Assembly: GCA_021904315.1 (NCBI GenBank)
Contig: CM038926.1
Span: forward strand, 4,264,390-4,328,389
DNA length: 64,000 nt
Source: Sphagnum magellanicum
Lineage: Eukaryota; Streptophyta; Sphagnopsida; Sphagnales; Sphagnaceae
Direction of reading: 5' to 3'
In this document: positions 1,941-58,668 of the stretch, piece by piece
How the letters are laid out: the number at the start of each line of letters is the position of its first letter
How positions within the stretch are numbered: position 1 is the stretch's first letter
The notes under the pieces: generated by a model
Database searches by the model: none
What the model was told of the DNA's origin: nothing
What the model saw: the letters and a program-made list of their open reading frames with translations, nothing else
Position numbers and translations under genes: made by a program

Positions 1941-2175
1941 GTTGCACTCAAATCCGACCTCTCTACCCGCTTATGCACTCAAACAAATGCTAATTAGTGC
2001 CTAATGTGCACTCTTAGATGCAATTTCCTCAATGCACTATCAAATGTGCTTCAATCACTCAAATGCACACGAATGCACCTCACAAACACACTCTGGCCCC
2101 TAGAAGACTGAATTGTGCACCAATGCACCTCTAATCACAAAATTCAGGCCTTAATGGCTCCCACTTGCATCAATG

Positions 2176-2355
2176 CTTCCTCACACACTCGAAATACACT
2201 CAAGCAACTCAAATCAAGTGCTTCCTCACACATTCGAAATGCACTCAACCAACTCAAATCAAGTGCTTCCTCACACACTGGAAATGCACTCAACCAACTC
2301 AAACCAAGTGCTTCCTCACACACTCGAAATGCACTCAGCCAACTCAAATCAAGTG
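2176..2355 (-). repeat. A1 leader 45-bp tandem repeat, 4 units
   Basis: Four head-to-tail 45-bp units between the primer-binding site and gag. In element sense each contains TTGAGTTGG and GTGTGAGGAAGC. Units differ by one to four bases. The length is a multiple of three, so unit gain or loss keeps any reading frame. Confidence 0.95.
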
Positions 2356-2631
2356 CTCTACAAATCAAATGTGCACAAGTACAGCTCAATGATTCAAATC
2401 AAGACTTACAATGTTGGAATGTGCACACATGCACATCTAATGCTTCAAAACACCTCCAAAGAACACCAATCAAGAACTTGTGCACCTCCAAGCTCCAAAT
2501 GGCTTGCAAAACCTCAAAGCTCCTCCAAAGCTCTTCAAAAGAGCAAACTTGCACCTCCAATACACACAAATCCTCAAGATCTGTCTCAATGCATACAAGC
2601 AATCAGACCTCTAATCATGCAACTTGCATGT

Positions 2632-2645
2632 GTGGGCCCATAACC
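2632..2645 (-). other. A1 primer-binding site (internal initiator tRNA-Met type)
   Basis: In element sense GGTTATGGGCCCAC follows the LTR directly. It is complementary to the anticodon arm of plant initiator tRNA-Met (GTGGGCCCATAACC). This matches the half-tRNA primer described for Drosophila copia. Confidence 0.85.
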
Positions 2646-2963
2646 TATTGAAGTATTGAAGAACAATAGGATCAGAGGAGAGATTGCGCAATTACAAGCA
2701 CATAAGACACACAAGTATGTGAACAATGCTTGGAGTGAGATATCCAACTCCCCTCCAGCCTTGCTCTTTATTCCCTTCCATGTACCACTACATTGACAAA
2801 CCATATGGGATAAATCCCTCCTTATTCTAACATGTTCGTGGTACTTACATATTTCAAATCTACCTATGTCTTTGATTACTTGCAACACTTAACTACCACA
2901 TTGTTTCTAATATCTACCACACCATTTCTAATGTTTCTAACATCTACATCATAATCTTCAACA
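2646..2963 (-). repeat. A1 5' LTR (318 bp)
   Basis: Full family A LTR. In element sense it begins TGTTGAAG and ends CTTCAATA, followed by the primer-binding site. The outer flank is AGAAT on the + strand. Confidence 0.95.
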
Positions 2964-3359
2964 AGAATGTCATAATTATGTGCAATTCTTTTGAGTATGA
3001 GCCTTTAATTTTGTTTCCAAAATCGGAGTCTTCAAATGAGGAAGAAGATAGAAGGGATACAGATGGGGCAGGACCATCAAATACATGAGTTTTTGAAGAG
3101 CCAAGAGACCTTGAAGGAGGAAAGGATAGTCTTGAGAAGGAGGCTACTGATCAAATTTTAAAACAAGTAAAATTTGTTTTGCATGAAGTTAGTTCTCATG
3201 AATATGCATTTGTAGCCACAGATATAGGGGAACATATACAACCTAAAGAACATATAATGTAAGAGGATCAAAAGGGTCAAATTAAACATGTGTTAGAGTT
3301 GTAACAACAGGATTAGACTTAGATTACATCATATTTGTAATCAAACTAACACTTATAAC
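2964..3359 (+). pseudogene. Displaced C-terminal piece of decayed gene U1
   Basis: Coding-like on the + strand. After a one-base frameshift it reads FEYEPLILFPKSES, then an acidic stretch (SSNEEEDRRDTDGAG), then LKQVKFVLHEVSSHEYAFVA, with TGA and TAA stops between. Coding character fades after about 3260. Joining its left end to the base after the ATTCT at 23794-23798 continues a minus-strand frame across the join (LWASITFPHQECHNYVQFF), so it is read as the end of U1. The product is not recognised. The last bases (ATAAC, 3355-3359) are the expected TSD of A2. Confidence 0.6.
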
Positions 3360-3677
3360 TATTGAAGTATTGAAGAACAATAGGATCAGAGGAGAGATTG
3401 CGCAATTACAAGCACATAAGACACACAAGTATGTGAACAATGCTTGGAGTGAGATATCCAACTCCCCTCCAGCCTTGCTCTTTATTCCCTTCCATGTACC
3501 ACTACATTGACAAACCATATGGGATAAATTCCTCCTTATTCTAACATGTTCGTGGTACTTACATATTTCAAATCTACCTATGTCTTTGATTACTTGCAAC
3601 ACTTAACTACCACATTGTTTCTAATATTTACCACACCATTTCTAATGTTTCTAACATCTACATCATAATCTTCAACA
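3360..3677 (-). repeat. A2 3' LTR (318 bp)
   Basis: TATTGAAG to CTTCAACA on the + strand, bordered on the right by CTCCCACTTTGC, the complement of the polypurine tract. The outer flank is ATAAC (3355-3359). It has a few private substitutions, for example AAATTC for AAATCC near 3528. Confidence 0.95.
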
Positions 3678-4143
3678 CTCCCACTTTGCAAGTAATCTAA
3701 GACTCTCAATCCCATGCTTCTTGTAAGGTTTTGATGTCGCTCCTTTGCCAATGCCTTTGTCAACACATCCGCCACCATATCTTGAGTTGGGCAATACTTC
3801 AGGCCTATTTCTCCACTCTCCAACTTCTCTCGAATGAAGTGGTGTTGTATGTCAATGTGCTTTGTGCGAGAGTGGTGTGTAGGGTTCTTTGCAAGTGCAA
3901 TGCATCCTTGATTGTCACACATGATGATTGTTGCTCCATCTTGCACAAGTCCCACATCCGCCATCAACTTCCTCAACCATATGGCCTCCTTGGTGCATTG
4001 ACTAGTGGCCATGTATTCGGCCTCCGTGGTAGACAAGGCAATTGTAGGTTGCCTCTTGCAATTCCATGAGATGGCTCCCACTCCAACAAAGAACACGTAC
4101 CCGGTGGTGGAACGCCGCTCATTTGCATCTCCACCCCAATCGG
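3590..4143 (-). pseudogene. A2 gag-pol, C-terminal RNase H piece
   Basis: The end of the polyprotein: the RNase H segment with STTEAEYMA and MCDNQG, the DVLTKAL motif, and the family-specific tail that runs through the PPT into the LTR and stops at 3590. The upstream side is cut at 4143 by solo LTR A6. The missing middle resumes at 9971-9976 after the duplicated ATCGG. Confidence 0.9.
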
Positions 4144-4251
4144 TGTTGAAGATTATGATGTAGATGTTAGAAACATTAGAAATGGTGTGGTAGATATTAG
4201 AAACAATGTGGTAGTTAAGTGTTGCAAGTAATCAAAGACATAGGTAGATTT
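4144..4251 (+). repeat. Solo LTR A6, left piece (108 bp)
   Basis: First 108 bases of a family A LTR in + orientation, starting TGTTGAAG. It is flanked on the left by ATCGG (4139-4143), which recurs at 9971-9975 after the other piece. A3 splits it, and GATTT (4247-4251) is the duplicated target. No internal sequence accompanies it, so it is a solo LTR formed by LTR-LTR recombination. Confidence 0.93.
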
Positions 4252-4569
4252 TATTGAAGTATTGAAGAACAATAGGATCAGAGGAGAGATTGCGCAATTA
4301 CAAGCACATAAGACACACAAGTATGTGAACAATGCTTGGAGTGAGATATCCAACTCCCCTCCAGCCTTGCTCTTTATTCCCTTCCATGTACCACTACATT
4401 GACAAACCATATGGGATAAATCCCTCCTTATTCTAACATGTTCGTGGTACTTACATATTTCAAATCTACCTATGTCTTTGATTACTTGCAACACTTAACT
4501 ACCACATTGTTTCTAATATCTACCACACCATTTCTAATGTTTCTAACATCTACATCATAATCTTCAACA
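4252..4569 (-). repeat. A3 3' LTR
   Basis: 318 bp, identical by eye to the LTR at 9438-9755. The polypurine tract complement CTCCCACTTTGC follows at 4570-4581. The first 88 bases in element sense also encode the end of gag-pol. Confidence 0.97.
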
Positions 4570-7500
4570 CTCCCACTTTGCAAGTAATCTAAGACTCTCA
4601 ATCCCATGCTTCTTGTAAGGTTTTGATGTCGCTCCTTTGCCAATGCCTTTGTCAACACATCCGCCACCATATCTTGAGTTGGGCAATACTTCAGGCCTAT
4701 TTCTCCACTCTCCAACTTCTCTCGAATGAAGTGGTGTTGTATGTCGATGTGCTTTGTGCGAGAGTGGTGTGTAGGGTTCTTTGCAAGTGCAATGCATCCT
4801 TGATTGTCACACATGATGATTGTTGCTCCATCTTGCACAAGTCCCACATCCGCCATCAACTTCCTTAACCATATGGCCTCCTTGGTGCATTGACTAGTGG
4901 CCATGTATTCGGCCTCCGTGGTAGACAAGGCAATTGTAGGTTGCCTCTTGCAATTCCATGAGATGGCTCCCACTCCAACAAAGAACACGTACCCGGTGGT
5001 GGAACGCCGCTCATTTGCATCTCCACCCCAATCGGCATCACAATATCCCCTCAAACTAACCTCCTTGCCTCCAAGGCACAATTTCAAGTCCATAGTGCCC
5101 TTCAAGTATCGCATGATGCGTTTCACCGCCATCCAATGGGAAGGACCAGCCCTTGACATGAATTGACTCACCATGCTCACCGGGAATGCAAGATCAGGCC
5201 GTGTGCCCACCATGGCATACATCAATGATCCCACCGCCGCCTTGTATGGAATGCCTTGCATCTCCTCTTGAATGCCTTGAAACTCCTCCTCCGTGAGCTT
5301 CAAGAGCTTGGAATTCACATCAAGCGGAGTTCCAATGGGCTTGCATTCCTCCATGTTGAAGCGCTTGAGCACCTCCTCAATGTACTTGCTTTGGCTCATG
5401 GTTATGGTGTGGTTGGCACGGTCTCTCTCAAACTCCACACCAAGGCAATAGTGCAACTCTCCAAGATCACTCATCTCAAATTCATTTTCAAGCCTTGACT
5501 TCAACCACTTCAAAATGTTCCCATTGCTTGCTAAGATGATCAAATCATCCACATAGATTATCACTATCAACAAGTACTCACCCGTTCGCTTGATGTACAA
5601 CGAATGGTCCGCTTGGCTCCTAGAAAAGCCTTCGTGGGTGAAGAACATGTCAATGCGTTGGTACCATGCTCTTGGTGATTGCTTGAGCCCGTACAAGGAC
5701 TTCTTCAACTTACACACCAGGTCCTCCTTGCCATCTTGCACGAATCCTTGGGGTTGGTCCATGTAGATGTCCTCCTCCAATTCTCCATTCAAGAATGCGG
5801 TCTTCACGTCCATTTGGTGGATCTCCAAGTCCATGGCGGCTCCAATTGCAAGAATGCATCTAATGGTTGTGAACTTGGCCACCGGGGCAAATGTCTCGTT
5901 GAAGTCCACACCTTCAACTTGAGAATACCCCTTGGCCACCAACCTTGCCTTGTGCCTCACGATATGGCCTGATGCATCCCTTTTGGTGCGAAACACCCAC
6001 TTGCATCCCACACTTTTGCGATCCTTTGGAAGAGGGACCAACTCCCATGTGCCATTGGCCATGAGTGAGCCATACTCCTCTTGCATGGCCGCCTCCCACT
6101 TGCTTGCATCCTCCGAACGCATTGCATCACACAAATTCAATGGATCATCAAGACAAGCAACATTGGCACGTTCCACATCTTGTTGGGGTAGGATGTGGTT
6201 CTTCCACCATTCTCCAAGCGGTCGTCGCTCCCTCAAGGGGTACCTACGCTCCTCCGAGGGCTGCCCATCTTCTTCATCACTTGTGCTTGCATCCTTAGAT
6301 GGTGTTGGGGTTGGCGGTGCCTCTTGATTGCTTGGATACTCTTTGGCATCACTTGCGCCCTCATCATTATCCACATAGGGCGATTTGGAAGATGTGTCCA
6401 TAATCACCACATTAGGGGTCTCATTTCTCCCACTTGGACGCATTTCCAAATCATTGCCCACATTAGTGCTATCCTCCATGAACTCAACATCCCTACACTT
6501 GATGATTTTCTTGGATTGCACACACATGAGCCTATATGCCTTGGTGCCTTCACAATACCCAAGAAACAAGCATTTTGTGCCCTTTGCATCAAGCTTACCC
6601 CTCTTCTCGTCCGGCACCATGGCATATGCAATGCATCCAAACACACGCATGTGTGAAATGCAAGGCTTTTTCCCACTCCATGCTTCCTCGGGTGTGATGG
6701 ATGGCAATGCTCTGGATGGACATCGATTCCTTGTGTAGGCCGCATTCACCACCGCTTCCGCCCAAAGTGACTTATTGAGGTTTTGAGCATGAAGCATGCT
6801 CCTGGCCATCTCCACAAGGGTGCGGTTTGCACGTTCCGCCACTCCGTTTTGTTGAGGCCTATATGGTGTGGAGGTTTGCTTCTCGATGCCGTGTGTCTTC
6901 AAGAAGCTCTGGAATCCCTTGGAAATGTACTCCCCTCCATTGTCCGACCGAAACACCTTGATCTTGTGTTCTGATTGTGTCTCCACAAGTGCCTTGAATT
7001 CCTTGAACTTCTCGAAGCACTCCCCTTTGGACTTCAACAAGTACACCCATACCTTCCTTGAAAAGTCATCAATGTACGTCACAAAGTACTTTGCACCACC
7101 CAAGGATGTGGTCCTCATGGGGCCACATACATCCGAATGCACAATCTCCAAGGGTTTCGTGGCACGCATCCCTCCATCGCTTGGAAATGGTTTGCGATGT
7201 TGTTTTCCCTCAATGCACCCTTCACAAAGAAATGAAGATGTAGGGCAGGGCATGTTTCCAAGGTTCATCCCCCTCACCATGTTTTGGAGCGCATGCACAC
7301 CTTTGATGTTCAAATGACCCAGGCGACGATGCCAAAGCTCCAATGCACCATCAATTGTTGAAGTTTGGGCCAAGTTGGCCACATTCATGTCACACACCTT
7401 GTTGAAGGTCACTTGATACAAGTTGCCTTCACGTAGTGCTATTGTAATCACCTCTCCATCAAACGCCCTCACAATGCAGTCATTCATGTTGAATTGCACT

Positions 7501-8579
7501 TTGCACCCACTTGACAAGATTTTGCTCACGGAAAGCAAGTTGGCATGCAATTTTGGCACATGGAGCACGTCCTTGATCCTAATCCTCTTGGTTCGCCCTT
7601 TCACCATCACTTCCACAAGGATGGACCCCATTCCAATTGCCTCAACAATGCTATCATCACCCATATGCACATTGCGTTTTGGAATTACCTCATACGTGTC
7701 AAATGCGGATCTATGAGGGGTCATATGCTTGGTGGCTCCCGAGTCCATGATCCACTTGCATATGGCCGTGCAATTGTCTCCATCCTTTGTTGCAAAGGCA
7801 TAATCATCATTGTCCTTGGCTTTGTTGGCACTCTCCTTCTCTTTGTTGTTGTTCTTGGCCTTGAAGCAAAATCGTGCAATGTGGCCTGGTTTGCCACAAT
7901 AGTAACATGTCTTGGTGTCTTTGCGTGTGGATGTGGTCCCTCCTCTTCCTTGCATTGACACCATCGCCGCATCCTCACCTTGCGGCTCCTTCTCCTTCCG
8001 CTTGGACACTTCATGCATCAATCGTGCGGTCACAAATTCCATGGTGAGGTTTTGCATGGGCAAGGTCTCCAAGGCGGTGATTAGGTATTCGTAGGAGGGT
8101 GGCAAGCTCTCAAGCAAGGTCATCACAACATCTTCATCCCTCACGGGCACCTCCAAGCAAGCAAGTTGATCCGCAAGTGCCTTGACCTTGTTGATGTGCT
8201 CTAGAAGGTCCTCTCCTTCTTGCATCTTGCACGTGAAGAACTTGCGGCGAATGAAGAGGATGTTAGACAAGCTCCGCGTCTCATGGATGTTACAAAGTGT
8301 GTTCCATGCCTCCGCTGGTCCCTTGCACCTCTTGATGTGGTGAAGTTGACTATCCACCAAGTTGATGCCAATGATGGACATGGCCTTCTTTGCGCGTCGT
8401 TGGTACTCCTTGATGACTTTGGGGTCCGCATTGGATGGTGGAGCCTCCTCAGACCCGTCAACAATCTCCCAAAGGTCCATGGAGGCCAACACCATCTCCA
8501 TCTTGAATTTCCAAAGGTTGAAGTTCTCCCCATTGAACTTGTCAATGACTCTAGTGCTCTCTCCCTCAAAGGATGCCAT
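4482..8579 (-). CDS. A3 gag-pol polyprotein (1365 aa), intact
   Basis: One frame encodes all copia functions in order. These are copia-type Gag (about residues 1-200), a CX2CX4HX4C zinc knuckle (about 225-238), aspartic protease with DSGATKHMT (about 280), an integrase zinc domain (WHRRLGH, then CEGC), a DD35E core (HSDVCGP, RSDNGGE, AERANR), reverse transcriptase (QMDVKTAFLNG, then YVDD about 1009-1012) and RNase H (CDADWGG, STTEAEY, CDNQG). The frame passes through the polypurine tract and ends 88 bases inside the 3' LTR. All catalytic residues are present. It has one codon more than A4 and A5 just before the knuckle. The start is the first ATG after the leader and matches every other copy. 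Confidence 0.97.
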   Translation of the reverse strand: MASFEGESTRVIDKFNGENFNLWKFKMEMVLASMDLWEIVDGSEEAPPSNADPKVIKEYQRRAKKAMSIIGINLVDSQLHHIKRCKGPAEAWNTLCNIHETRSLSNILFIRRKFFTCKMQEGEDLLEHINKVKALADQLACLEVPVRDEDVVMTLLESLPPSYEYLITALETLPMQNLTMEFVTARLMHEVSKRKEKEPQGEDAAMVSMQGRGGTTSTRKDTKTCYYCGKPGHIARFCFKAKNNNKEKESANKAKDNDDYAFATKDGDNCTAICKWIMDSGATKHMTPHRSAFDTYEVIPKRNVHMGDDSIVEAIGMGSILVEVMVKGRTKRIRIKDVLHVPKLHANLLSVSKILSSGCKVQFNMNDCIVRAFDGEVITIALREGNLYQVTFNKVCDMNVANLAQTSTIDGALELWHRRLGHLNIKGVHALQNMVRGMNLGNMPCPTSSFLCEGCIEGKQHRKPFPSDGGMRATKPLEIVHSDVCGPMRTTSLGGAKYFVTYIDDFSRKVWVYLLKSKGECFEKFKEFKALVETQSEHKIKVFRSDNGGEYISKGFQSFLKTHGIEKQTSTPYRPQQNGVAERANRTLVEMARSMLHAQNLNKSLWAEAVVNAAYTRNRCPSRALPSITPEEAWSGKKPCISHMRVFGCIAYAMVPDEKRGKLDAKGTKCLFLGYCEGTKAYRLMCVQSKKIIKCRDVEFMEDSTNVGNDLEMRPSGRNETPNVVIMDTSSKSPYVDNDEGASDAKEYPSNQEAPPTPTPSKDASTSDEEDGQPSEERRYPLRERRPLGEWWKNHILPQQDVERANVACLDDPLNLCDAMRSEDASKWEAAMQEEYGSLMANGTWELVPLPKDRKSVGCKWVFRTKRDASGHIVRHKARLVAKGYSQVEGVDFNETFAPVAKFTTIRCILAIGAAMDLEIHQMDVKTAFLNGELEEDIYMDQPQGFVQDGKEDLVCKLKKSLYGLKQSPRAWYQRIDMFFTHEGFSRSQADHSLYIKRTGEYLLIVIIYVDDLIILASNGNILKWLKSRLENEFEMSDLGELHYCLGVEFERDRANHTITMSQSKYIEEVLKRFNMEECKPIGTPLDVNSKLLKLTEEEFQGIQEEMQGIPYKAAVGSLMYAMVGTRPDLAFPVSMVSQFMSRAGPSHWMAVKRIMRYLKGTMDLKLCLGGKEVSLRGYCDADWGGDANERRSTTGYVFFVGVGAISWNCKRQPTIALSTTEAEYMATSQCTKEAIWLRKLMADVGLVQDGATIIMCDNQGCIALAKNPTHHSRTKHIDIQHHFIREKLESGEIGLKYCPTQDMVADVLTKALAKERHQNLTRSMGLRVLDYLQSGSVEDYDVDVRNIRNGVVDIRNNVVVKCCK

Positions 8580-8814
8580 GTTGCACTCAAATCCGACCTC
8601 TCTACCCGCTTATGCGCTCAAACAAATGCTAATTAGTGCCTAATGTGCACTCTTAGATGCAATTTCCTCAATGCACTATCAAATGTGCTTCAATCACTCA
8701 AATGCACACGAATGCACCTCACAAACACACTCTGGCCCCTAGAAGACTGAATTGTGCACCAATGCGCCTCTAATCACAAAATTCAGGCCTTAATGGCTCC
8801 CACTTGCATCAATG

Positions 8815-9039
8815 CTTCCTCACACACTCGAAATACACTCAAGCAACTCAAATCAAGTGCTTCCTCACACATTCGAAATACACTCAACCAACTCAAATCA
8901 AGTGCTTCCTCACACACTGGAAATGCACTCAACCAACTCAAACCAAGTGCTTCCTCACACACTCGAAATGCACTCAACCAACTCAAATCAAGTGCTTCCT
9001 CACACACTCGAAATGCACTCAGCCAACTCAAATCAAGTG
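8815..9039 (-). repeat. A3 leader 45-bp tandem repeat, 5 units
   Basis: Five 45-bp units of the same type as in A1. In element sense they lie inside an open frame of 96 codons (8783-9073) built from a 15-residue repeat. Confidence 0.95.
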
Positions 9040-9170
9040 CTCTACAAATCAAATGTGCACAAGTACACCTCAATGATCCAAATCAAGACTTACAATGTTG
9101 GAATGTGCACACATGCACATCTAATGCTTCAAAACACCTCCAAAGAACACCAATCAAGAACTTGTGCACC

Positions 9171-9320
9171 TCCAAGCTCCAAATGGCTTGCAAAACCTCA
9201 AAGCTCCTCCAAAGCTCTTCAAAAGTCCTCCAAGGCTCCAAAAGCGCCTCCAAGCTCCAAATGGCTTGCAAAACCTCAAAGCTCCTCCAAAGTCGTCCAG
9301 GGCTCCAAAAGCGCCTCCAA
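9171..9320 (-). repeat. A3-specific 78-bp leader duplication
   Basis: TCCAAGCTCCAAATGG starts at 9171 and again at 9249, giving a 78-bp period. The second copy lacks about nine bases. A1, A4 and A5 carry a single unit, so this is a recent tandem duplication in A3 or its direct source. Confidence 0.9.
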
Positions 9321-9423
9321 AACCCTCCAAAAGAGCAAACTTGCACCTCCAATACACACAAATCCTCAAGATCTCTCTCAATGCATACAAGCAATCAGAC
9401 CTCTAATCATGCAACTTGCATGT

Positions 9424-9437
9424 GTGGGCCCATAACC
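9424..9437 (-). other. A3 primer-binding site
   Basis: Fourteen bases next to the 5' LTR, complementary to the anticodon arm of initiator tRNA-Met; same sequence as in A1, A4 and A5. Confidence 0.85.
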
Positions 9438-9755
9438 TATTGAAGTATTGAAGAACAATAGGATCAGAGGAGAGATTGCGCAATTACAAGCACATAAGAC
9501 ACACAAGTATGTGAACAATGCTTGGAGTGAGATATCCAACTCCCCTCCAGCCTTGCTCTTTATTCCCTTCCATGTACCACTACATTGACAAACCATATGG
9601 GATAAATCCCTCCTTATTCTAACATGTTCGTGGTACTTACATATTTCAAATCTACCTATGTCTTTGATTACTTGCAACACTTAACTACCACATTGTTTCT
9701 AATATCTACCACACCATTTCTAATGTTTCTAACATCTACATCATAATCTTCAACA
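9438..9755 (-). repeat. A3 5' LTR
   Basis: 318 bp, followed on the right by the GATTT target duplication and then the remainder of solo LTR A6. Confidence 0.97.
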
Positions 9756-9970
9756 GATTTGAAATATGTAAGTACCACGAACATGTTAGAATAAGGAGGG
9801 ATTTATCCCATATGGTTTGTCAATGTAGTGGTACATGGAAGGGAATAAAGAGCAAGGCTGGAGGGGAGTTGGACATCTCACTCCAAGCATTGTTCACATA
9901 CTTGTGTGTCTTATGTGCTTGTGATTGCGCAATCTCTCCTCTGATCCTATTGTTCTTCAATACTTCAAGA
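9756..9970 (+). repeat. Solo LTR A6, right piece
   Basis: Begins with the duplicated GATTT and continues the LTR to CTTCAAGA, where other copies read CTTCAATA. ATCGG (9971-9975) follows, matching 4139-4143. Several substitutions against the other LTRs make it older than A3. Confidence 0.93.
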
Positions 9971-12900
9971 ATCGGCATCACAATATCCCTTCAAACTAAC
10001 CTCGTTGCCTCCAAGGCACAATTTCAAGTCCATAGTGCCCTTCAAGTATCGCATGATGCGTTTCACCGCCATCCAATGGGAAGGACCAGCCCTTGACATG
10101 AATTGACTCACCATGCTCACCGGGAATGCAAGATCAGGCCGTGTGCCCACCATGGCATACATCAATGATCCCACCGCCGCCTTGTATGGAATGCCTTGCA
10201 TCTCCTCTTGAATGCCTTGAAACTCCTCCTCCGTGAGCTTCAAGAGCTTGGAATTCACATCAAGTGGAGTTCCAATGGGCTTGCATTCCTCCATGTTGAA
10301 GCGCTTGAGCACCTCCTCAATGTACTTGCTTTGGCTCATGGTTATGGTGTGGTTGGCACGGTCTCTCTCAAACTCCACACCAAGGCAATAGTGCAACTCT
10401 CCAAGATCACTCATCTCAAATTCATTTTCAAGCCTTGACTTCAACCACTTCAAAATGTTCCCATTGCTTGCTAAGATGATCAAATCATCCACATAGATTA
10501 TCACTATCAACAAGTACTCACCCGTTCCCTTGATGTACAACGAATGGTCCGCTTGGCTCCTAGAAAAGCTTTCGTGGGTGAAGAACATGTCAATGCGTTG
10601 GTACCATGCTCTTGGTGATTGCTTGAGCCCGTACAAGGACTTCTTCAACTTACACACCAGGTCCTCCTTGCCATCTTGCACGAATCCTTGGGGTTGGTCC
10701 ATGTAGATGTCCTCCTCCAATTCTCCATTCAAGAATGCGGTCTTCACGTCCATTTGGTGGATCTCCAAGTCCATGGCGACTCCAATTGCAAGAATGCATC
10801 TAATGGTTGTGAACTTGGCCACCGGGGCAAATGTCTCATTGAAGTCCACACCTTCAACTTGAGAATACCCCTTGGCCACCAACCTTGCCTTGTGCCTCAC
10901 GATATGGCCTGATGCATCCCTTTTGGTGCGAAACACCCACTTGCATCCCACACTTTTGCGATCCTTTGGAAGAGGGACCAACTCCCATGTGCCATTGGCC
11001 ATGAGTGAGCCATACTCCTCTTGCATGGCCGCCTCCCACTTGCTTGCATCCTCCGAACGCATTGCATCACACAAATTCAATGGATCATCAAGACAAGCAA
11101 CATTGGCACGTTCCACATCTTGTTGGGGTAGGATGTGGTTCTTCCACCATTCTCCAAGCGGTCGTCGCTCCCTCAAGGGGTACCTACGCTCCTCCGAGGG
11201 CTGCCCATCTTCTTCATCACTTGTGCTTGCATCCTTAGATGGTGTTGGGGTTGGCGGTGCCTCTTGATTGCTTGGATACTCTTTGGCATCACTTGCGCCC
11301 TCATCATTATCCACATAGGGCGATTTGGAAGATGTGTCCATAATCACCACATTAGGGGTCTCATTTCTCCCACTTGGACGCATTTCCAAATCATTGCCCA
11401 CATTAGTGCTATCCTCCATGAACTCAACATCCCTACACTTGATGATTTTCTTGGATTGCACACACATGAGCCTATATGCCTTGGTGCCTTCACAATACCC
11501 AAGAAACAAGCATTTTGTGCCCTTTGCATCAAGCTTACCCCTCTTCTCGTCCGGCACCATGGCATATGTAATGCATCCAAACACACGCATGTGTGAAATG
11601 CAAGGCTTTTTCCCACTCCATGCTTCCTCGGGTGTGATGGATGGCAATGCTCTTGATGGGCATCGATTCCTTGTGTAGGCCGCATTCACCACCGCTTCCG
11701 CCCAAAGTGACTTATTGAGGTTTTGAGCATGAAGCATGTTCCTGGCCATCTCCACAAGGGTGCGGTTTGCACGTTCCGCCACTCCATTTTGTTGAGGCCT
11801 ATATGGTGTGGAGGTTTGCTTCTCGATGCCGTGTGTCTTCAAGAAGCTCTGGAATCCCTTGGAAATGTACTCCCCTCCATTGTCCGACCGAAACACCTTG
11901 ATCTTGTGTTCTGATTGTGTCTCCACAAGTGCCTTGAATTCCTTGAACTTCTCGAAGCACTCCCCTTTGGACTTCAACAAGTACACCCATACCTTCCTTG
12001 AAAAGTCATCAATGTACGTCACAAAGTACTTTGCACCACCCAAGGATGTGGTCCTCATGGGGCCACATACATCCGAATGCACAATCTCCAAGGGCTTGGT
12101 GGCACGCATCCCTCCATCGCTTGGAAATGGTTTGCGATGTTGTTTTCCCTCAATGCACCCTTCACAAAGAAATGAAGATGTAGGGCAGGGCATGTTTCCA
12201 AGGTTCATACCACTCACCATGTTTTGGAGCGCATGCACACCTTTGATGTTCAAATGACCCAGGCGACGATGCCAAAGCTCCAATGCACCATCAATTGTTG
12301 AAGTTTGGGCCACGTTGGCCACATTCATGTCACACACCTTGTTGAAGGTCACTTGATACAAGTTGCCTTCACGTAGTGCTATTGTAATCACCTCTCCATC
12401 AAACGCCCTCACAATGCATTCATTCATGTTGAATTGCACTTTGCACCCACTTGACAAGATTTTGCTCACCGAAAGCAAGTTGGCATGCAATTTTGGCACA
12501 TGGAGCACGTCCTTGATCCTAATCCTCTTGGTTCGCCCTTTCACCATCACTTCCACAAGGATGGACCCCATTCCAATTGCCTCAACAATGCTATCATCAC
12601 CCATATGCACATTGCGTTTCGGAATTACCTCATACGTGTCAAATGCGGCTCTATGAGGGGTCATATGCTTGGTGGCTCCCGAGTCCATGATCCACTTGCA
12701 TATGGCCGTGCAATTGTTTCCATCCTTTGTTGCAAAGGCATAGTCATCATTGTCCTTGGCTTTGTTGGCACTCTCCTTCTCTTTGTTGTTGTTCTTGGCC
12801 TTGAAGCAAAATCGTGCAATGTGGCCTGGTTTGCCGCAATAGTAACATGTCTTGGTGTCTTTGCGTGTGGATGTGGTCCCTCCTCTTCCTTGCATTGACA

Positions 12901-13519
12901 CCATCGCCGCATCCTCACCTTGCGGCTCCTTCTCCTTCCGCTTGGACACTTCATGCATCAATCGTGCGGTCACAAATTCCATGGTGAGGTTTTGCATGGG
13001 CAAGGTCTCCAAGGCGGTGATTAGGTATTCGTAGGAGGGTGGCAAGCTCTCAAGCAAGGTCATCACAACATCTTCATCCCTCACGGGCACCTCCAAGCAA
13101 GCAAGTTGATCCGCAAGTGCCTTGACCTTGTTGATGTGCTCTAGAAGGTCCTCTCCTTCTTGCATCTTGCACGTGAAGAACTTGCGGCGAATGAAGAGGA
13201 TGTTAGACAAGCTCCGCGTCTCATGGATGTTGCAGAGTGTGTTCCATGCCTCCGCTGGTCCCTTGCACCTCTTGATGTGGTGAAGTTGACTATCCACCAA
13301 GTTGATGCCAATGATGGACATGGCCTTCTTTGCGCGTCATTGGTACTCCTTGATGACTTTGGGGTCCGCATTGGATGGTGGAGCCTCCTCAGACCCGTCA
13401 ACAATCTCCCAAAGGTCCATGGAGGCCAACACCATCTCCATCTTGAATTTCCAAAGGTTGAAGTTCTCCCCATTGAACTTGTCAATGACTCTAGTGCTCT
13501 CTCCCTCAAAGGATGCCAT
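9971..13519 (-). pseudogene. A2 gag-pol, main part, with premature stop
   Basis: Runs from the MASFEGES start at 13519 to the site where A6 interrupts RNase H (GYCDAD). The Gag knuckle, protease, integrase DD35E and reverse transcriptase YVDD are all present. A TGA near 13337-13339 replaces the CGA arginine codon seen in every other copy, a C-to-T change at a CpG. A long frame reopens at an internal methionine (13321). The nonsense change and the A6 insertion inactivate this copy. Confidence 0.92.
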
Positions 13520-13672
13520 GTTGCACTCAAATCCGACCTCTCTACCCGCTTATGCGCTCAAACAAATGCTAATTAGTGCCTAATGTGCACTCTTAGATGC
13601 AATTTCCTCAATGCACTATCAAATGTGCTTCAATCACTCAAATGCACACGAATGCACCTCACAAACACACTC

Positions 13673-14153
13673 TGTATTGGAAATAACTTGAAAACAAGCA
13701 AGAAATGAAAGCTTCAAGGTTCATGAAATGGAACAATTGTATTAACTAACAAGAAGATTACAAAGGTTGTATACTTCAATTGCTACAATCACAAAACTAT
13801 GGCTTGCAACAACTAACAAAGCTTGAAGGTTCTATGTGCACTCAAAAACCATGAAAGGAAAGAATGAAAAACAACTCAAAACCATTCCACTATATACTAT
13901 CTCCTAACCCTAAAGTAGCCGCCACTTAACCCTAACCTAGCCGCCGCCAAACCCTAACCCTAGCCGCCGCCTAACCCTAGCCACCACCAAACCCTAAACG
14001 TAGCCGCCGCTTAACCCTAATCCTAGCCGCCCCCAAACCCTAAGTAGTCTCCTAACCTAACTACTACAAGGATGTGTATACTATTCATCCTTTTGATGAA
14101 TGTTTAACACATTCATCAACATTGGGAATTAGAAACGAATAGAATTTCTAACA
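13673..14153 (-). repeat. B 3' LTR (481 bp)
   Basis: In element sense it starts TGTTAGAAATTC and ends TTTCCAATACA, giving canonical TG...CA ends. The purine run AGAGTGGGAG precedes it. It contains a GC-rich box array and a TATA-like stretch. With no second copy in the window, its age cannot be estimated from LTR divergence. Confidence 0.9.
13891..14050 (-). promoter_or_regulatory. B LTR promoter candidate: GCC-box / telo-box array next to TATA
   Basis: Five exact AGCCGCC motifs (13917, 13939, 13962, 14002, 14025) and one AGCCACC variant (13979) alternate with three exact AAACCCTAA motifs (13949, 13989, 14035) and further CCCTAA cores. In element sense the array lies just upstream of ATAGTATATA (13891-13900), a TATA-box candidate. 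AGCCGCC is the known ERF-binding GCC-box and AAACCCTAA the known plant telo-box. Promoter function is inferred from layout. Confidence 0.6.
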
Positions 14154-14161
14154 CTCCCACT

Positions 14162-17100
14162 CTATGAAGTTTCTAATCCGAACATGTTTATCAACTTATG
14201 ATGTCGTTCTTTTGATAATGCCTTGGTAAGCACATCCGCCACCATATGTTCCGTTGGACAATATTCAAATTGAACTTCTCCATTTTCAACTCGTTCTCGA
14301 ACAAAATGATGTTGTACATCAATGTGTTTTGTTCGTGCATGGTGAGTGGGATTCTTGGTCAATGATATCGCACCTTGATTGTCGCATCGAATCACCATCA
14401 TTTTCTTTTCCATGTATCCTAAATCCATCATCAATTTTGTTATCCATATGGCTTCTTTTGTGGCTTGTGTGTTTGCCATGTATTCCGCCTCCGTGGTGGA
14501 CAATGCTATTGTGGGTTGTCGTTTGCTACTCCAAGAAATGGCTCCACCTCCGATCATGAAAACAAACCCTGTGGTGGACCTCCTATCTTCAAGATCACCA
14601 CCCCAATCCGCATCGCAATATCCAAGAACTTCCTTGGATGGTGTTCCACCAAATTGTAATTTCATTTGCAATGTACCTTGCAAATATCGAAAGATTCGTT
14701 TGACGGCCATCCAATGCTCCATGTTAGGGTTCGCCATGTGTTGACTCAACACGCTTATTGGGTATGCCAAATCGGGTCGTGTGCACAACATGGCATACAT
14801 CAAAGACCCAACCGCTTGTTGATATGGAAATCCCTTTGATTCATCATTTCCATTCGCATTCCTTTGTAACTTCACCTTGGGATCCAATGGAACTCCAATG
14901 GGCTTACATTCCTCCATTCGAAACCGCTTCAATATTTCTTTGAGGTATTTGATTTGGTTGATACGTAGGAGTCTTTCATCACGATTCCTTTCCACCTCCA
15001 TCCCCAAAAAGAAATGCAACTCCCCGAGGTCCTTCATTTCAAACTTTTGACTCAATTCCTCCTTGATTTGCAAAAGTTTGTTTTGATCGTTGCACACCAA
15101 AATGAGGTCATCCACATAGACCACAATGAAAAACTTCACATCTCCCACTTGTGCAACGTACACACTCGGATCCGCCTCACTCTTCATAAATTCAATGCTT
15201 TTGAGAAACGCATCTAACTTTTGATTCCATGCCCTTGGAGATTGTTTCAAACCATACAAGGACTTGTGAAGCTTACACACGAGATGTTCGCCTCCTTGGT
15301 GCACGAACCCTTGAGGTTGCTCCATGTAAATCTCCTCTTCAAGCTCGCCATTGAGAAATGCGGTTTTCACGTCCATTTGATGGATCTCCATGTCTTCCAA
15401 GGCCGCCAATGCAAGAATACAACGAATAGATGCAAATTTTGCGACGGGCGCAAAAGTTTCGTTGTAATCCACTCCGTAGGTTTGGGTAAAACCTCTTGCC
15501 ACTAATCTAGCCTTGTAGCGTTCCACTTCCCCATTTGCGCCTTGTTTGATTTTGAACACCCATTTGCAAGAAACGGGTTTCCTTCCGATGGGAAATGGTA
15601 CCAAAGTCCATGTGTTGTTTGTCATGAGGGAATCAAATTCTTCTCGCATTGCACACTCCCACTCCTTGGAATTTTCACATGACAATGCTTCTTCAATATT
15701 TTGGGGCTCCTCCAAAAATGCAACGGTGGCGCGCTCCACCTCTTTGGTAGCAATCCACCAATCTCGAGGCCATTCCCTTCGTTGCCTTTGAGGTCTTTCC
15801 TTCGCAACATCTTGTGAAGGTTCACAAGATGGGTTATCATTGGAAACAACAAATTCTTCATCCGATGAAGAACTTGGTGTGGATTCACTTTGCACACCTT
15901 CCATTCTTCTTTCACTCAAAGGTGCATCTCGACTAAGGTTCAATGGTTCTTCTCCCTCAACTTCTTCATGCACAACTACATTTTCTTCTTTCTCAACATG
16001 AGGTACACCACCTATTTGCTTCGACCCTTCAATGAACACGACATCTCTACTTTTGATGATTCTTTTGGTTTTCACACACATCAAGCGATATGCTTTAGTG
16101 CCTTCGTAATATCCTAAAAACACACAAGGCATGGACTTGGACTCTAATTTGGTCCTCTTCTCATCGGGGACATGTGCAAAGGCCTTACAACCAAAAACTC
16201 TCAAATGGGACACATCGGGTTTTCTACCGCTCCACACTTCTTGAGGGGTCTTGGAATCAAGAGCCTTGGTTGGACATCGATTTTTGATGTACACCGCCGT
16301 GTTCACCGCTTCGCCCCAAAATTCAAGTTCCAACCCTTGTGCAAGAATCATGCTTCTTGCACATTCCATGATGGTTCTATTGGCACGTTCTGCAACACCG
16401 TTTTGTTGTGGGGAATATGGCGCACTTGTTTGTCGTTGAATTCCACATTCCGCAAGAAATGCGTCAAATTTCTTAGACACAAATTCTCCTCCGTTGTCGG
16501 AACGTAGCACTTTGATTTTGTGACCAATTTCGTTCTCCACCAACGCCTTGTATTGTTTGAACTTTTCAAACGCTTCTCCTTTGGCCTTCAAAAGATAGAC
16601 ATGAGTTTTCCTTGAGAAGTCGTCAATGAAAGTGAGAAAGTATCGCGCTCCACCATGCGATGTAGTCTTCATTGGCCCGCACACATCCGTGTGCACAATC
16701 TCCAAAAGTTGTGAAGCCCTCGTTGCTCCGTCCTTGGGAAATGATGTTCTTTGATGTTTGCCTTTGACGCATCCCTCACAAATGTGATGCAACGGCACTT
16801 CTTTCAAATTCATGCCATCCACCATGGCATCTAACTCCTTAAGGCTTGCCATGTTGAGATGGCCAAGTCTTTCATGCCAAAGCATGGCACTTTCCTCCAA
16901 AGAATTTGCAATGTGTGCCATGTCCTTACGCACCTTCACATTAAGAAGGTACAAGTTCTTGTCCCTTCGTGCTTGCGCCACAACAACTCCTCGAGCATCG
17001 TTGACCTTACAACCATCCTTGTCAAACTCCACTTTGAAACCTTCCGAAATGAGTTTGCTCACCGAAATGAGATTATTCTTCATTTTTGGAACATGAAGAA

Positions 17101-18073
17101 CTTGGGTGATGGTTGTGTGCGTCAATTGGCCTCCCACTTGCAATGTGGCTTTGATGCTCCCCTTGCCAATGGCCTCCAAAATGGTGTCATCCCCCATGAA
17201 CACCCTCCTTGGGGAAATGCGCTCGTACGTGGTAAACCATTCTTGTTCGAATGTCATGTGTTGCGTTGCACCCGAATCCACAATCCAATCATACGTGGTA
17301 TGATCATTGGCACTCAATGCCGCAACAAACATTTGTTCGTGATCTTCACAAGCTTGATTAACTTTTTCTTTTTCATCATTTTTTTTCTTCAAGCAATTTC
17401 TCACAAAATGTCCGGGTTTCTTACAATAAAAGCAAAGCTTCTCATTTGGCTTGTGAGTTTTGTTCACTAATGCAGTAGTTTCGGAACTTTCACATTCTTT
17501 TCTCTTGGACACTTCGTGAAGCAACCTTGCTACAATGAATTGAAGGTCTACATCTTTCGTGGACATGGACTCCAAGCTTGTGACTAAGTTATCAAAGGAT
17601 GGAGGAAGGCTCATGAGGAGTACCATGTAAACATCTTCATCCGTAATGTTCACCTCGATAGAACGTAGTTGGTCCGCAAGGGCTTTCACCGTGTTGATGT
17701 GCACAAGCATGTCATCTCCTTCTTGCATTTTGATGGTGAAGAATCTCCTTCGAAGGAACAACTTGTTGCCAATGGTCTTAGCTTCATGGACACCGCAAAG
17801 AGCCTCCCACGCACTTCTCACATTGTCACAATATTGAATGTGTGCAAGTTGGGCATCCGTGAGATGTTCACAAAGCAATGCAAAGGCCTTGGTCTCTTTT
17901 TCGTTGTAATCGGCCGTTGCAAGTTCTTCACTTGGCAAAGTGGCACTCCCATCAACAAATTTCCAAAGGCCATGTTTGGAAAGCATCATGCGCATTTTGA
18001 ACTTCCAAAGGTGAAAGTTGCCACCATCAAACTTCTCCATGACTTTTAAGGACTCCATTTGAAAAGAAGACAT
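14162..18073 (-). CDS. B gag-pol polyprotein (about 1303 aa), intact
   Basis: An uninterrupted copia polyprotein. It has Gag with NFHLWKFKM, a zinc knuckle (CFYCKKPGHFVRNC), protease (DSGATQHMT), an integrase zinc domain and a DD35E core (HTDVCGP, RSDNGGE, AERANR), reverse transcriptase (QMDVKTAFLNG, VYVDDL) and RNase H (CDADWGG, STTEAEY, CDNQG). The frame opens 11 codons earlier at 18106, but MSSFQMES at 18073 aligns with the MASFEGES start of family A and is preferred. Unlike family A, it stops just before the polypurine tract and does not enter the LTR. It is clearly related to A but too diverged to be the same family. Confidence 0.93.
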   Translation of the reverse strand: MSSFQMESLKVMEKFDGGNFHLWKFKMRMMLSKHGLWKFVDGSATLPSEELATADYNEKETKAFALLCEHLTDAQLAHIQYCDNVRSAWEALCGVHEAKTIGNKLFLRRRFFTIKMQEGDDMLVHINTVKALADQLRSIEVNITDEDVYMVLLMSLPPSFDNLVTSLESMSTKDVDLQFIVARLLHEVSKRKECESSETTALVNKTHKPNEKLCFYCKKPGHFVRNCLKKKNDEKEKVNQACEDHEQMFVAALSANDHTTYDWIVDSGATQHMTFEQEWFTTYERISPRRVFMGDDTILEAIGKGSIKATLQVGGQLTHTTITQVLHVPKMKNNLISVSKLISEGFKVEFDKDGCKVNDARGVVVAQARRDKNLYLLNVKVRKDMAHIANSLEESAMLWHERLGHLNMASLKELDAMVDGMNLKEVPLHHICEGCVKGKHQRTSFPKDGATRASQLLEIVHTDVCGPMKTTSHGGARYFLTFIDDFSRKTHVYLLKAKGEAFEKFKQYKALVENEIGHKIKVLRSDNGGEFVSKKFDAFLAECGIQRQTSAPYSPQQNGVAERANRTIMECARSMILAQGLELEFWGEAVNTAVYIKNRCPTKALDSKTPQEVWSGRKPDVSHLRVFGCKAFAHVPDEKRTKLESKSMPCVFLGYYEGTKAYRLMCVKTKRIIKSRDVVFIEGSKQIGGVPHVEKEENVVVHEEVEGEEPLNLSRDAPLSERRMEGVQSESTPSSSSDEEFVVSNDNPSCEPSQDVAKERPQRQRREWPRDWWIATKEVERATVAFLEEPQNIEEALSCENSKEWECAMREEFDSLMTNNTWTLVPFPIGRKPVSCKWVFKIKQGANGEVERYKARLVARGFTQTYGVDYNETFAPVAKFASIRCILALAALEDMEIHQMDVKTAFLNGELEEEIYMEQPQGFVHQGGEHLVCKLHKSLYGLKQSPRAWNQKLDAFLKSIEFMKSEADPSVYVAQVGDVKFFIVVYVDDLILVCNDQNKLLQIKEELSQKFEMKDLGELHFFLGMEVERNRDERLLRINQIKYLKEILKRFRMEECKPIGVPLDPKVKLQRNANGNDESKGFPYQQAVGSLMYAMLCTRPDLAYPISVLSQHMANPNMEHWMAVKRIFRYLQGTLQMKLQFGGTPSKEVLGYCDADWGGDLEDRRSTTGFVFMIGGGAISWSSKRQPTIALSTTEAEYMANTQATKEAIWITKLMMDLGYMEKKMMVIRCDNQGAISLTKNPTHHARTKHIDVQHHFVRERVENGEVQFEYCPTEHMVADVLTKALSKERHHKLINMFGLETS

Positions 18074-18359
18074 TTTGAACACAAATGCTACAACAAACAC
18101 TCTCAAACTTGAAAGTTAAAGTTTTCAACAACTAAAGAACTATCTTCCGAACACTTTCACTTGGAAAAGCTTGATACTTTCAAAAACAATTTTTTCACAC
18201 TTGAAAAACTTACAACACCTTGAAGAAATCTCTTCCACACCTCCCACTCACTTGGAAAGACTATTACTCTCTTTGCAACCTTGCAAACTAAAAGCCTTCC
18301 TTCAAAAGGATTCTCGCTTTCTATGTTGTACAAGGAAACACGTTCAAAAACCTTAAAGG
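18074..18359 (-). other. B leader fragment
   Basis: Untranslated leader rich in ACTTTCA and CTTGGAAA motifs. It ends at the A4 boundary with AAAGG. No primer-binding site or LTR is present. The complement of the last five bases (CCTTT) should be the TSD of the left-hand A element if the inversion model holds. Confidence 0.7.
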
Positions 18360-18677
18360 TGTTGAAGATTATGATGTAGATGTTAGAAACATTAGAAATG
18401 GTGTGGTAGATATTAGAAACAATGTGGTAGTTAAGTGTTGCAAGTAATCAAAGACATAGGTAGATTTGAAATATGTAAGTACCACGAACATGTTAGAATA
18501 AGGAGGGATTTATCCCATATGGTTTGTCAATGTAGTGGTACATGGAAGGGAATAAAGAGCAAGGCTGGAGGGGAGTTGGATATCTCACTCCAAGCATTGT
18601 TCACATACTTGTGTGTCTTATGTGCTTGTAATTGCGCAATCTCTCCTCTGATCCTATTGTTCTTCAATACTTCAATA
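18360..18677 (+). repeat. A4 5' LTR
   Basis: TGTTGAAG to CTTCAATA, 318 bp, followed directly by the primer-binding site. A candidate poly(A) signal AATAAA lies at 18551-18556. No convincing TATA box was seen. Confidence 0.96.
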
Positions 18678-18691
18678 GGTTATGGGCCCAC
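18678..18691 (+). other. A4 primer-binding site (half-tRNA type)
   Basis: GGTTATGGGCCCAC abuts the LTR with no gap. It pairs with the 3' end of the 5' half of initiator tRNA-Met, cut in the anticodon loop. The TGGTATCAGAGC site usual in plant copia elements is absent. Confidence 0.87.
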
Positions 18692-18974
18692 ACATGCAAG
18701 TTGCATGATTAGAGGTCTGATTGCTTGTATGCATTGAGAGAGATCTTGAGGATTTGTGTGTATTGGAGGTGCAAGTTTGCTCTTTTGGAGGGTTTTGGAG
18801 GCGCTTTTGGAGCCTTGGAGGACTTTTGAAGAGCTTTGGAGGAGCTTTGAGGTTTTGCAAGCCATTTGGAGCTTGGAGGTGCACAAGTTCTTGATTGGTG
18901 TTCTTTGGAGGTGTTTTGAAGCATTAGATGTGCATGTGTGCACATTCCAACATTGTAAGTCTTGATTTGAATCA

Positions 18975-19265
18975 TTGAGGTGTACTTGTGCACATTTGAT
19001 TTGTAGAGCACTTGATTTGAGTTGGCTGAGTGCATTTCGAGTGTGTGAGGAAGCACTTGATTTGAGTTGGCTGAGTGCATTTCGAGTGTGTGAGGAAGCA
19101 CTTGGTTTGAGTTGGTTGAGTGCATTTCCAGTGTGTGAGGAAGCACTTGATTTGAGTTGGTTGAGTGCATTTCGAATGTGTGAGGAAGCACTTGATTTGA
19201 GTTGGTTGAGTGTATTTCGAGTGTGTGAGGAAGCATTGATGCAAGTGGGAGCCATTAAGGCCTGA
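18975..19265 (+). CDS. Possible leader small ORF built of 15-residue repeats (96 codons)
   Basis: A sense-strand open frame in the leader, upstream of gag. It starts MRCTCAHLICRAL, passes through five 15-residue repeats (SWLSAFRVCEEALDL type) and ends MQVGAIKA. Equivalent frames exist in A3 (8783-9073, 96 codons), A5 (57763-58053, 96 codons) and A1 (2144-2389, 81 codons). The 45-bp unit has no stop in several frames, so openness alone is weak evidence of coding. It could be a translated upstream ORF or chance. No known protein was recognised. Confidence 0.25.
   Translation: MRCTCAHLICRALDLSWLSAFRVCEEALDLSWLSAFRVCEEALGLSWLSAFPVCEEALDLSWLSAFRMCEEALDLSWLSVFRVCEEALMQVGAIKA
19009..19233 (+). repeat. 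A4 leader 45-bp tandem repeat, 5 units
   Basis: Five 45-bp units starting at CACTTGATTTGAG and ending GTGAGGAAG. Units differ at a few positions, and the order of variants is shared with A3 and A5. Confidence 0.95.
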
Positions 19266-19468
19266 ATTTTGTGATTAGAGGTGCATTGGTGCACAATTCA
19301 GTCTTCTAGGGGCCAGAGTGTGTTTGTGAGGTGCATTCGTGTGCATTTGAGTGATTGAAGCACATTTGATAGTGCATTGAGGAAATTGCATCTAAGAGTG
19401 CACATTAGGCACTAATTAGCATTTGTTTGAGTGCATAAGCGGGTAGAGAGGTCGGATTTGAGTGCAAC

Positions 19469-23563: not shown

Positions 23564-23793
23564 TCAAAGACATAGGTAGATTTGAAATATGTAAGTACCA
23601 CGAACATGTTAGAATAAGGAGGGATTTATCCCATATGGTTTGTCAATGTAGTGGTACATGGAAGGGAATAAAGAGCAAGGCTGGAGGGGAGTTGGATATC
23701 TCACTCCAAGCATTGTTCACATACTTGTGTGTCTTATGTGCTTGTAATTGCGCAATCTCTCCTCTGATCCTATTGTTCTTCAATACTTCAATA
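23476..23793 (+). repeat. A4 3' LTR
   Basis: 318 bp, identical by eye to 18360-18677. ATTCT follows. AATAAA lies at 23667-23672. Confidence 0.96.
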
Positions 23794-23895
23794 ATTCTTG
23801 GTGCGGGAATGTTATGGAAGCCCAAAGAAGCAAAAATTTTAACGAATTTTATAGATCAACCAGTGAACATTGGTAAACATTCGCGCACCAAGAAT
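23794..23895. repeat. Imperfect inverted repeat, 20-bp arms
   Basis: Arms 23794-23813 (ATTCTTGGTGCGGGAATGTT) and 23876-23895 pair with one mismatch across a 62-bp spacer. The left arm starts at the A4 junction. When the A1 flank is joined in front, the pairing extends by two more bases. It lies inside the decayed gene U1. Confidence 0.8.
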
Positions 23896-53234: not shown

Positions 53235-53552
53235 TATTGAAGTATTGAAGAACAATAGGATCAGAGGAGAGATTGCGCAATTACAAGCACATAAGACACA
53301 CAAGTATGTGAACAATGCTTGGAGTGAGATGTCTAACTCCCCTCCAGCCTTGCTCTTTATTCCCTTCCATGTACCACTACATTGACAAACCATATGGGAT
53401 AAATCCCTCCTTATTCTAACATGTTCGTGGTACTTACATATTTCAAATCTACCTATGTCTTTGATTACTTGCAACACTTAACTACCACATTGTTTCTAAT
53501 ATCTACCACACCATTTCTAATGTTTCTAACATCTACATCATAATCTTCAACA
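53235..53552 (-). repeat. A5 3' LTR
   Basis: 318 bp, with the polypurine tract complement (CTCCCACTTTGC) immediately to the right. It encodes the last 29 codons of gag-pol. Confidence 0.97.
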
Positions 53553-57559: not shown

Positions 57560-57794
57560 GTTGCACTCAAATCCGACCTCTCTACCCGCTTATGCGCTCA
57601 AACAAATGCTAATTAGTGCCTAATGTGCACTCTTAGATGCAATTTCCTCAATGCACTATCAAATGTGCTTCAATCACTCAAATGCACACGAATGCACCTC
57701 ACAAACACACTCTGGCCCCTAGAAGATTGAATTGTGCACCAATGCACCTCTAATCACAAAATTCAGGCCTTAATGGCTCCCACTTGCATCAATG

Positions 57795-58019
57795 CTTCCT
57801 CACACACTCGAAATACACTCAACCAACTCAAATCAAGTGCTTCCTCACACATTCGAAATGCACTCAACCAACTCAAATCAAGTGCTTCCTCACACACTGG
57901 AAATGCACTCAACCAACTCAAACCAAGTGCTTCCTCACACACTCGAAATGCACTCAACCAACTCAAATCAAGTGCTTCCTCACACACTCGAAATGCACTC
58001 AGCCAACTCAAATCAAGTG
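57795..58019 (-). repeat. A5 leader 45-bp tandem repeat, 5 units
   Basis: Five units with the same order of variants as A4. The matching sense-strand small open frame is 57763-58053. Confidence 0.95.
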
Positions 58020-58336
58020 CTCTACAAATCAAATGTGCACAAGTACACCTCAATGATTCAAATCAAGACTTACAATGTTGGAATGTGCACACATGCACAT
58101 CTAATGCTTCAAAACACCTCCAAAGAACACCAATCAAGAACTTGTGCACCTCCAAGCTCCAAATGGCTTGCAAAACCTCAAAGCTCCTCCAAAGCTCTTC
58201 AAAAGTCCTCCAAGGCTCCAAAAGCGCCTCCAAAACCCTCCAAAAGAGCAAACTTGCACCTCCAATACACACAAATCCTCAAGATCTCTCTCAATGCATA
58301 CAAGCAATCAGACCTCTAATCATGCAACTTGCATGT

Positions 58337-58350
58337 GTGGGCCCATAACC
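58337..58350 (-). other. A5 primer-binding site
   Basis: Same 14-base internal initiator tRNA-Met complement as in the other family A copies, abutting the 5' LTR. Confidence 0.85.
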
Positions 58351-58668
58351 TATTGAAGTATTGAAGAACAATAGGATCAGAGGAGAGATTGCGCAATTAC
58401 AAGCACATAAGACACACAAGTATGTGAACAATGCTTGGAGTGAGATGTCTAACTCCCCTCCAGCCTTGCTCTTTATTCCCTTCCATGTACCACTACATTG
58501 ACAAACCATATGGGATAAATCCCTCCTTATTCTAACATGTTCGTGGTACTTACATATTTCAAATCTACCTATGTCTTTGATTACTTGCAACACTTAACTA
58601 CCACATTGTTTCTAATATCTACCACACCATTTCTAATGTTTCTAACATCTACATCATAATCTTCAACA
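58351..58668 (-). repeat. A5 5' LTR
   Basis: 318 bp, identical by eye to 53235-53552; followed by ATATT. Confidence 0.97.

Follow-up and report, generated by a model that had tools for sequence, protein, structure and literature searches.

Exchanged target-site duplications point to an inversion between two opposed Copia retrotransposons in Sphagnum magellanicum

Background

Inversions arising by exchange between two opposed copies of one transposable element are already known, the closest described case being the Galileo element of Drosophila. According to the available portion of that account (PMC2775673), inversion 2z3 of Drosophila buzzatii has copies of a single family in opposite orientation at its two ends, and their target-site duplications have been exchanged. 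Here we describe the same features in a less usual setting, a 64,000-nucleotide stretch of Sphagnum magellanicum DNA (assembly GCA_021904315.1, contig CM038926.1, positions 4,264,390 to 4,328,389; hereafter the window). Two copies of a Copia family that we call family A, A1 on the minus strand and A4 on the plus strand, bound a 15.4-kb segment at 2964-18359 and carry AAAGG and ATTCT distributed over their four flanks. Galileo is a DNA transposon, whereas the elements here are long terminal repeat (LTR) retrotransposons enclosing about 15 kb. In the Galileo study, un-inverted chromosomes were sequenced, which supplied the single-copy target, and both copies were shown to be chimeric; here the present order is what is available, the partners are near-identical, and the single-copy target comes from a paralog, for one end.

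A second likeness is to the CR elements of maize centromere 10 (CEN10), which are complete LTR retrotransposons of a centromere cluster with mismatched target-site duplications, read as recombination products (PMC4806543). Both recombination products and misassemblies were found there, some of the mismatched cases being assembly errors, and the accessible text reports no reciprocal-exchange pair across an inverted segment.

In mosses, RLC5 Copia elements are clustered within chromosomes (PMC9946827; PMC11899658, as far as the consulted sections describe them), and family A probably belongs among them, a likeness drawn from clustering alone. S. divinum is described as having 20 chromosomes, with RLC5 clusters on every chromosome that are taken as centromeres (PMC9946827), and a chromosome 20 of about 5 Mb that is the V chromosome (PMC9946827; PMC13120521), described by its authors as non-recombining. 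The chromosome that carries the window (C20) is probably this V (male) sex chromosome, a match made through the presumed S. divinum source of the assembly. The word "inversion" is absent from the part of PMC9946827 that was available, and a survey of literature by titles and abstract openings returned no such event in Sphagnum for copies of RLC5 or of any other Copia family, which leaves absence unproven.

Results and Discussion

Coordinates are window positions, with negative numbers lying to the left of the window start. The sequence examined comprised the window together with 20 kb leftward and 10 kb rightward (94 kb in total), and A4 (18360-23793; 5434 bp, LTR 318 bp) served as the family A reference. 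A1 runs leftward from 2963 through the window start to -2384 (5348 bp overall, 5' LTR at 2646-2963). We use E1 and E2 for two inferred parental family A copies, and A1 and A4 for the present recombined elements.

The anatomy of the elements and all of their flanks can be read directly. In element sense, A1 has ATTCT outside its 5' end (AGAAT on the plus strand, 2964-2968), while A4 lies between AAAGG (18355-18359) and ATTCT (23794-23798). These flanks, re-read here, are as an earlier note on this DNA had given them, including the discordant pair at A4 and the perfect duplications of two other full-length minus-strand copies, A3 (4252-9755; AAATC/AAATC) and A5 (53235-58668; AATAT/AATAT), the latter serving as control. 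A solo LTR of the same family likewise retains its duplication (ATCGG/ATCGG). Outside the window, the 3' flank of A1 is AAAGG (CCTTT on the plus strand, -2389 to -2385). AAAGG is thus common to the 5' end of A4 and the 3' end of A1, and ATTCT to the 5' end of A1 and the 3' end of A4.

The segment between A1 and A4 includes A2, a family A copy on the minus strand, and B, a member of a second Copia family inserted in A2, both of which lack a 5' LTR within the window. The earlier note attributed this lack to the inversion and forecast what should stand to the left of A1. The forecast sequences are all present. Left of A1 come, in order, CCTTT, the start of the B leader and the B 5' LTR (-3257 to -2779, the two B parts together occupying -3257 to -2385), then the A2 interior as far as the B insertion point, and finally the A2 5' LTR, which begins at -4205 and is preceded by GTTAT. 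The bases expected to form the B primer-binding site also follow the B LTR, their identity as such being given by position alone. Neither ATTCT nor a sequence unrelated to B, either of which the earlier note would have taken as a refutation, occurs at this flank. A2 bears GTTAT at each end, yet its ends sit on opposite strands; B bears CAGAG at each end. A single flip of 2964-18359 restores the duplications of A2, B, E1 and E2, that of E2 as a plus-strand element with ATTCT on both sides, as had been proposed.

The specificity of this pattern was assessed by pooling this locus with 20 others; together they supplied 48 outer LTR termini (97 termini were seen; LTR matches below 95% identity were excluded), which give 28 x 20 = 560 possible 5'/3' pairs. 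A 5-mer is shared in 13 of these pairs, ten of which are simply both ends of one same-strand element. The other three are opposite-strand pairs, namely A2 GTTAT, E1 AAAGG and E2 ATTCT; all of them lie at this locus and all are repaired by the same flip. The chance of a 5-mer match is 0.0013-0.0022 per pair, so that about one stray match would be expected, and none was seen among the 560 pairs.

The exchanged duplications around this segment are hereby confirmed as an observation, and their interpretation as an inversion is supported. We consider it likely that two young Copia copies in opposite orientation underwent ectopic homologous recombination, which inverted the segment in the plant; the crossover itself, and its occurrence in the plant rather than in the assembler, are what we infer. 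In the proposed history, E1 would have inserted in B, which lay inside A2, itself inside the remnant of a gene, U1, while E2 would have inserted in the opposite orientation in a small element, resembling a miniature inverted-repeat transposable element (MITE), of the same U1. The parental order would then have been the 5' part of A2, the 5' part of B, E1 on the minus strand, the rest of B, the rest of A2, the left part of U1 with part of the MITE-like element, E2 on the plus strand, and the right part of U1. Non-allelic homologous recombination of E1 with E2, whether inside a single chromatid or between sisters, would invert the intervening DNA, leaving A4 with the 5' end of E1 and the 3' end of E2, and A1 with the 5' end of E2 and the 3' end of E1. 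Because the crossover could fall anywhere in the 5.4 kb of homology, the length inverted lies between a minimum of 15,396 bp (2964-18359) and a maximum of about 26.2 kb (-2384 to 23793). No loss or gain of sequence is seen at the inversion ends.

Joining 2964 to 23799, as the flip requires, restores a 185-bp MITE-like element from one terminal inverted repeat at 2964-2980 (plus strand) and the remainder at 23799-23966 (minus strand). Its terminal inverted repeats match at 16 of 18 positions, and it is bounded by a perfect 8-bp duplication, TGCAATTC, at 2981-2988 (plus strand) and 23967-23974. The restored element scores 24 of 26, against a best value of 20 among 700 controls (300 shuffles and 400 other window stretches); when the five bases common to both flanks are left out, the score is 18 of 20, a value that none of 20,000 window stretches reached (best 17). 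The earlier note had drawn attention to two additional paired bases gained by the inverted repeat at 23794. That gain is real and, taken as sole evidence, weak; unlike it, the 185-bp element is strong evidence for the join. The MITE-like element is accordingly split by both E2 and the inversion, and no second full copy of it was found within the window.

The gene remnant in which this element lies reads across the same join. To the right of A4, on the minus strand, the decayed, coiled-coil-like U1 (23967-24743, limits approximate, by alignment with its homologs and including the MITE duplication) runs to ...YQWKKLCNS and is followed by the inverted repeat; it resumes on the plus strand at 2989 (2989-3359) as FEYEPLILFPKSES. 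Two proteins among 190 candidates match U1, P0121 and P0122. P0121 continues as ...MEKFMPSFEYEP, reading ...MPSFEYEP through the join, which indicates that both sides are joined without a gap. It extends beyond the join by five residues only (FEYEP), and although the query that found the two proteins had both sides already joined, these residues belong to P0121 itself. A different frame, TFPHQECHNYVQFF, had been cited by the earlier note as U1 continuing through the join. We discard it as evidence, since it belongs to a run of 26 residues between stops within the MITE-like element, and the coding frame proper is a different one.

Of 7999 candidates scored against a 630-residue read-through of the right flank as protein query, none matched at E <= 0.001. 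No relatives of P0121 were confirmed among 18 pattern-matching stretches in viral_contigs and 88 in genome_contigs, and the empty-site 20-mer had 0 matches in viral_contigs, collections that are not expected to hold plants and that may omit entries from the genome of the window itself.

A paralog of U1 (about -15391 to -10683, loci L010/L009) lies some 14 kb left of 2964 and is 77-79% alike. It agrees with the joined flanks at 395 of 507 aligned positions, the MITE-like element excluded, and it lacks that element, being shorter there by 194 bases, one more than the 193 (185 + 8) of the element and its duplication. By its alignment, the paralog reads as the empty site of the MITE-like element. 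What the paralog and P0121 display is the U1 end in its empty state, not the whole un-inverted order; for that end, 2964 and 23799 were ancestrally adjacent. The paralog is itself interrupted by B-type LTR sequence, and U1 may represent a repeated gene family.

The left flank and the restored join together dispose of a history with no inversion, in which A4 would have arisen by deletion between a copy in B and a direct copy in U1, its ATTCT match with A1 being accidental. Such a deletion would account for the differing flanks of A4 and for the lack of right parts in B and A2, at the price of an accidental 5-mer match of about 0.0013-0.0022 per pair. It is refuted by the supposedly lost parts of B and A2, which are present just left of A1, and the MITE-like element, the paralog and P0121 link 2964 to 23799; we give this history practically no chance.

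An inversion between two close copies is in keeping with the kinship of A1 and A4. Over element positions 955-3049 a single site of 2095 distinguishes them, and no other two window copies are as close; between A1 and the others there are 9-17 differences. The claim of the earlier note that they alone share several private variants stands among the window copies, where A1 and A4 have five states found in no other copy, against one such site for one other pair. With loci elsewhere added, the states at 1073, 1334 and 2076 are no longer private, and the claim fails for three of its five states; those at 2222 and 3015, and an additional one at 3863, are still private, but few outside loci reach these sites. 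Besides several substitutions, A1 differs from A4 by two deletions in its untranslated leader, one of 41 bp (element 423-463) and one of 45 bp (668-712), which adjoin a short tandem-repeat stretch. The proportion of differences in element 955-3049 and in 1-954 (1/2095 versus 3/868) does not differ significantly (Fisher p = 0.08). The LTR pairs of E1, E2, A3 and A5 are each identical (0/318), as is that of B, and those of A2 differ at 2/318. Since E1 and E2 have the same sequence in every LTR, the LTRs cannot reveal the insertion from which they come. It should also be noted that dating A1 or A4 by their LTRs would compare LTRs from different insertions.

Family A was also searched for in the whole genome (438,994,042 bases, 31 contigs), with 40 of 651 candidates scored. 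Among those scored, 41 full-strength matches fall on 19 contigs, and the matches are clustered within 0.8 Mb in ten of the eleven contigs with at least two of them, contig C1 being the exception. Mismatched 5-bp flanks occur in three of 11 full-length copies elsewhere: L017 on C14 (AAATG/CCCAT), L020 on C3 (CATTT/AAAAC) and L024 on C11 (GAGAT/GATTG). Some 0.9 to 2.6 kb past the 3' end of L024 there is a fragment of a copy in the opposite orientation, and the two could be a second exchange pair. Two of the 20 loci (L018 on C11 and L019 on C3) have an internal-LTR-internal structure in which one LTR is common to two interiors, the pattern that unequal exchange or tandem insertion would leave. 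Recombinant forms further include the solo LTR with its ATCGG duplication. Solo LTR, shared LTRs and mismatches together imply either frequent recombination among copies or frequent misassembly.

These other recombinant forms also favour a more complex history, in which at least two rearrangements, or template switching between elements during the repair of a break, had the net effect of one inversion. A single exchange, on the other hand, is enough to account for the gene, the MITE-like element and all four duplications, and neither end shows a loss or gain of sequence; we regard the complex history as very unlikely.

The more serious competitor to an inversion in the plant is an assembly flip, whereby the plant would be un-flipped and the assembler would have turned the 15.4-kb segment between the 5.4-kb inverted repeats. 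Several observations weigh against our interpretation here. Outside the repeats, every junction is identical in both orders, and near-identical opposed repeats of 5.4 kb are places where an assembler can flip a segment. Re-sequencing of maize CEN10 corrected five misassembled elements with mismatched target-site duplications (PMC4806543, in the available text), and the mismatched duplications in 3/11 copies elsewhere recall that case. The presumed source assembly was made from PacBio continuous long reads (CLR) with MECAT, and four misjoins were broken by its authors (PMC9946827, in the part consulted); the printed order is known here from that one assembly. A mosaic test of A1 and A4 could show no chimerism or crossover point, the partners being near-identical and usable parental copies lacking, and P0122, which ends at the join, neither supports nor opposes it.

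Conversely, the two deletions and several substitutions mean that reads exceeding the element can distinguish A1 from A4. The presumed source is a haploid plant with about 70x long reads and a contig N50 of 17.5 Mb (PMC9946827, same portion), and if this identification is right, mixing of two alleles is no origin for a false flip; the 94 kb examined also contains no N (count 0). None of these points is decisive. Taken together, we hold an assembly flip to be unlikely, though far from negligible, and favour a real inversion over it.

The remaining features of the window concern the elements themselves. The 3' end of A2 occupies 3360-4143 (3' LTR 3360-3677, followed in element sense by GTTAT), and its interior, element 4656-955, lies at 9970-13674, both by alignment to A4. 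Between them, the solo LTR (plus strand, by LTR alignment) is divided into 4144-4251 and 9756-9970 by A3, which is nested in it; its terminal bases are GA, not TA. B comprises a 3' LTR and interior at 13675-18359 (minus strand), with an open reading frame at 14162-18115, and its LTR (about 13675-14153 and -3257 to -2779) contains irregular TTAGGGTTT-like and GGCGGCTA repeats. Open frames are of 1374-1375 codons in A3, A4 and A5 (1374 amino acids in A4) and 1317 in B. Pieces of A4 carry PF14223, PF00665, PF25597 and PF07727, in that order, and pieces of both A4 and B display the Copia order of gag, integrase and reverse transcriptase. Family A is accordingly placed in Ty1/Copia by its domain order, flanking LTRs of 318 bp and 5-bp duplications. 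Elsewhere in the window, three pairs of inverted repeats are 73-77% alike (31680-32812/39242-40411, 35963-36714/38452-39214 and 48258-49114/51544-52369), some of which cross-match; these older long inverted repeats are perhaps long terminal-inverted-repeat elements, Mutator- or foldback-like by shape only, and maybe nested.

Conclusions

The nested insertions at this locus, five in all (A2, B, E1, E2 and the MITE-like element), witness a single event, and inversions due to mobile elements seldom preserve so many scars. A broader and rather doubtful extension is that the putative centromere of the V chromosome is now being rearranged by exchange among RLC5-type Copia elements, this inversion, like the mismatches in 3 of 11 copies elsewhere, being one of many, so that the clusters marking the centromere might also drive structural turnover through sister- or intra-chromatid recombination on a chromosome that has no homologue to pair with. 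Retrotransposon clusters like the one at this locus have been proposed as centromeres, and the locus offers a testable case of how such a cluster may change without meiotic pairing.

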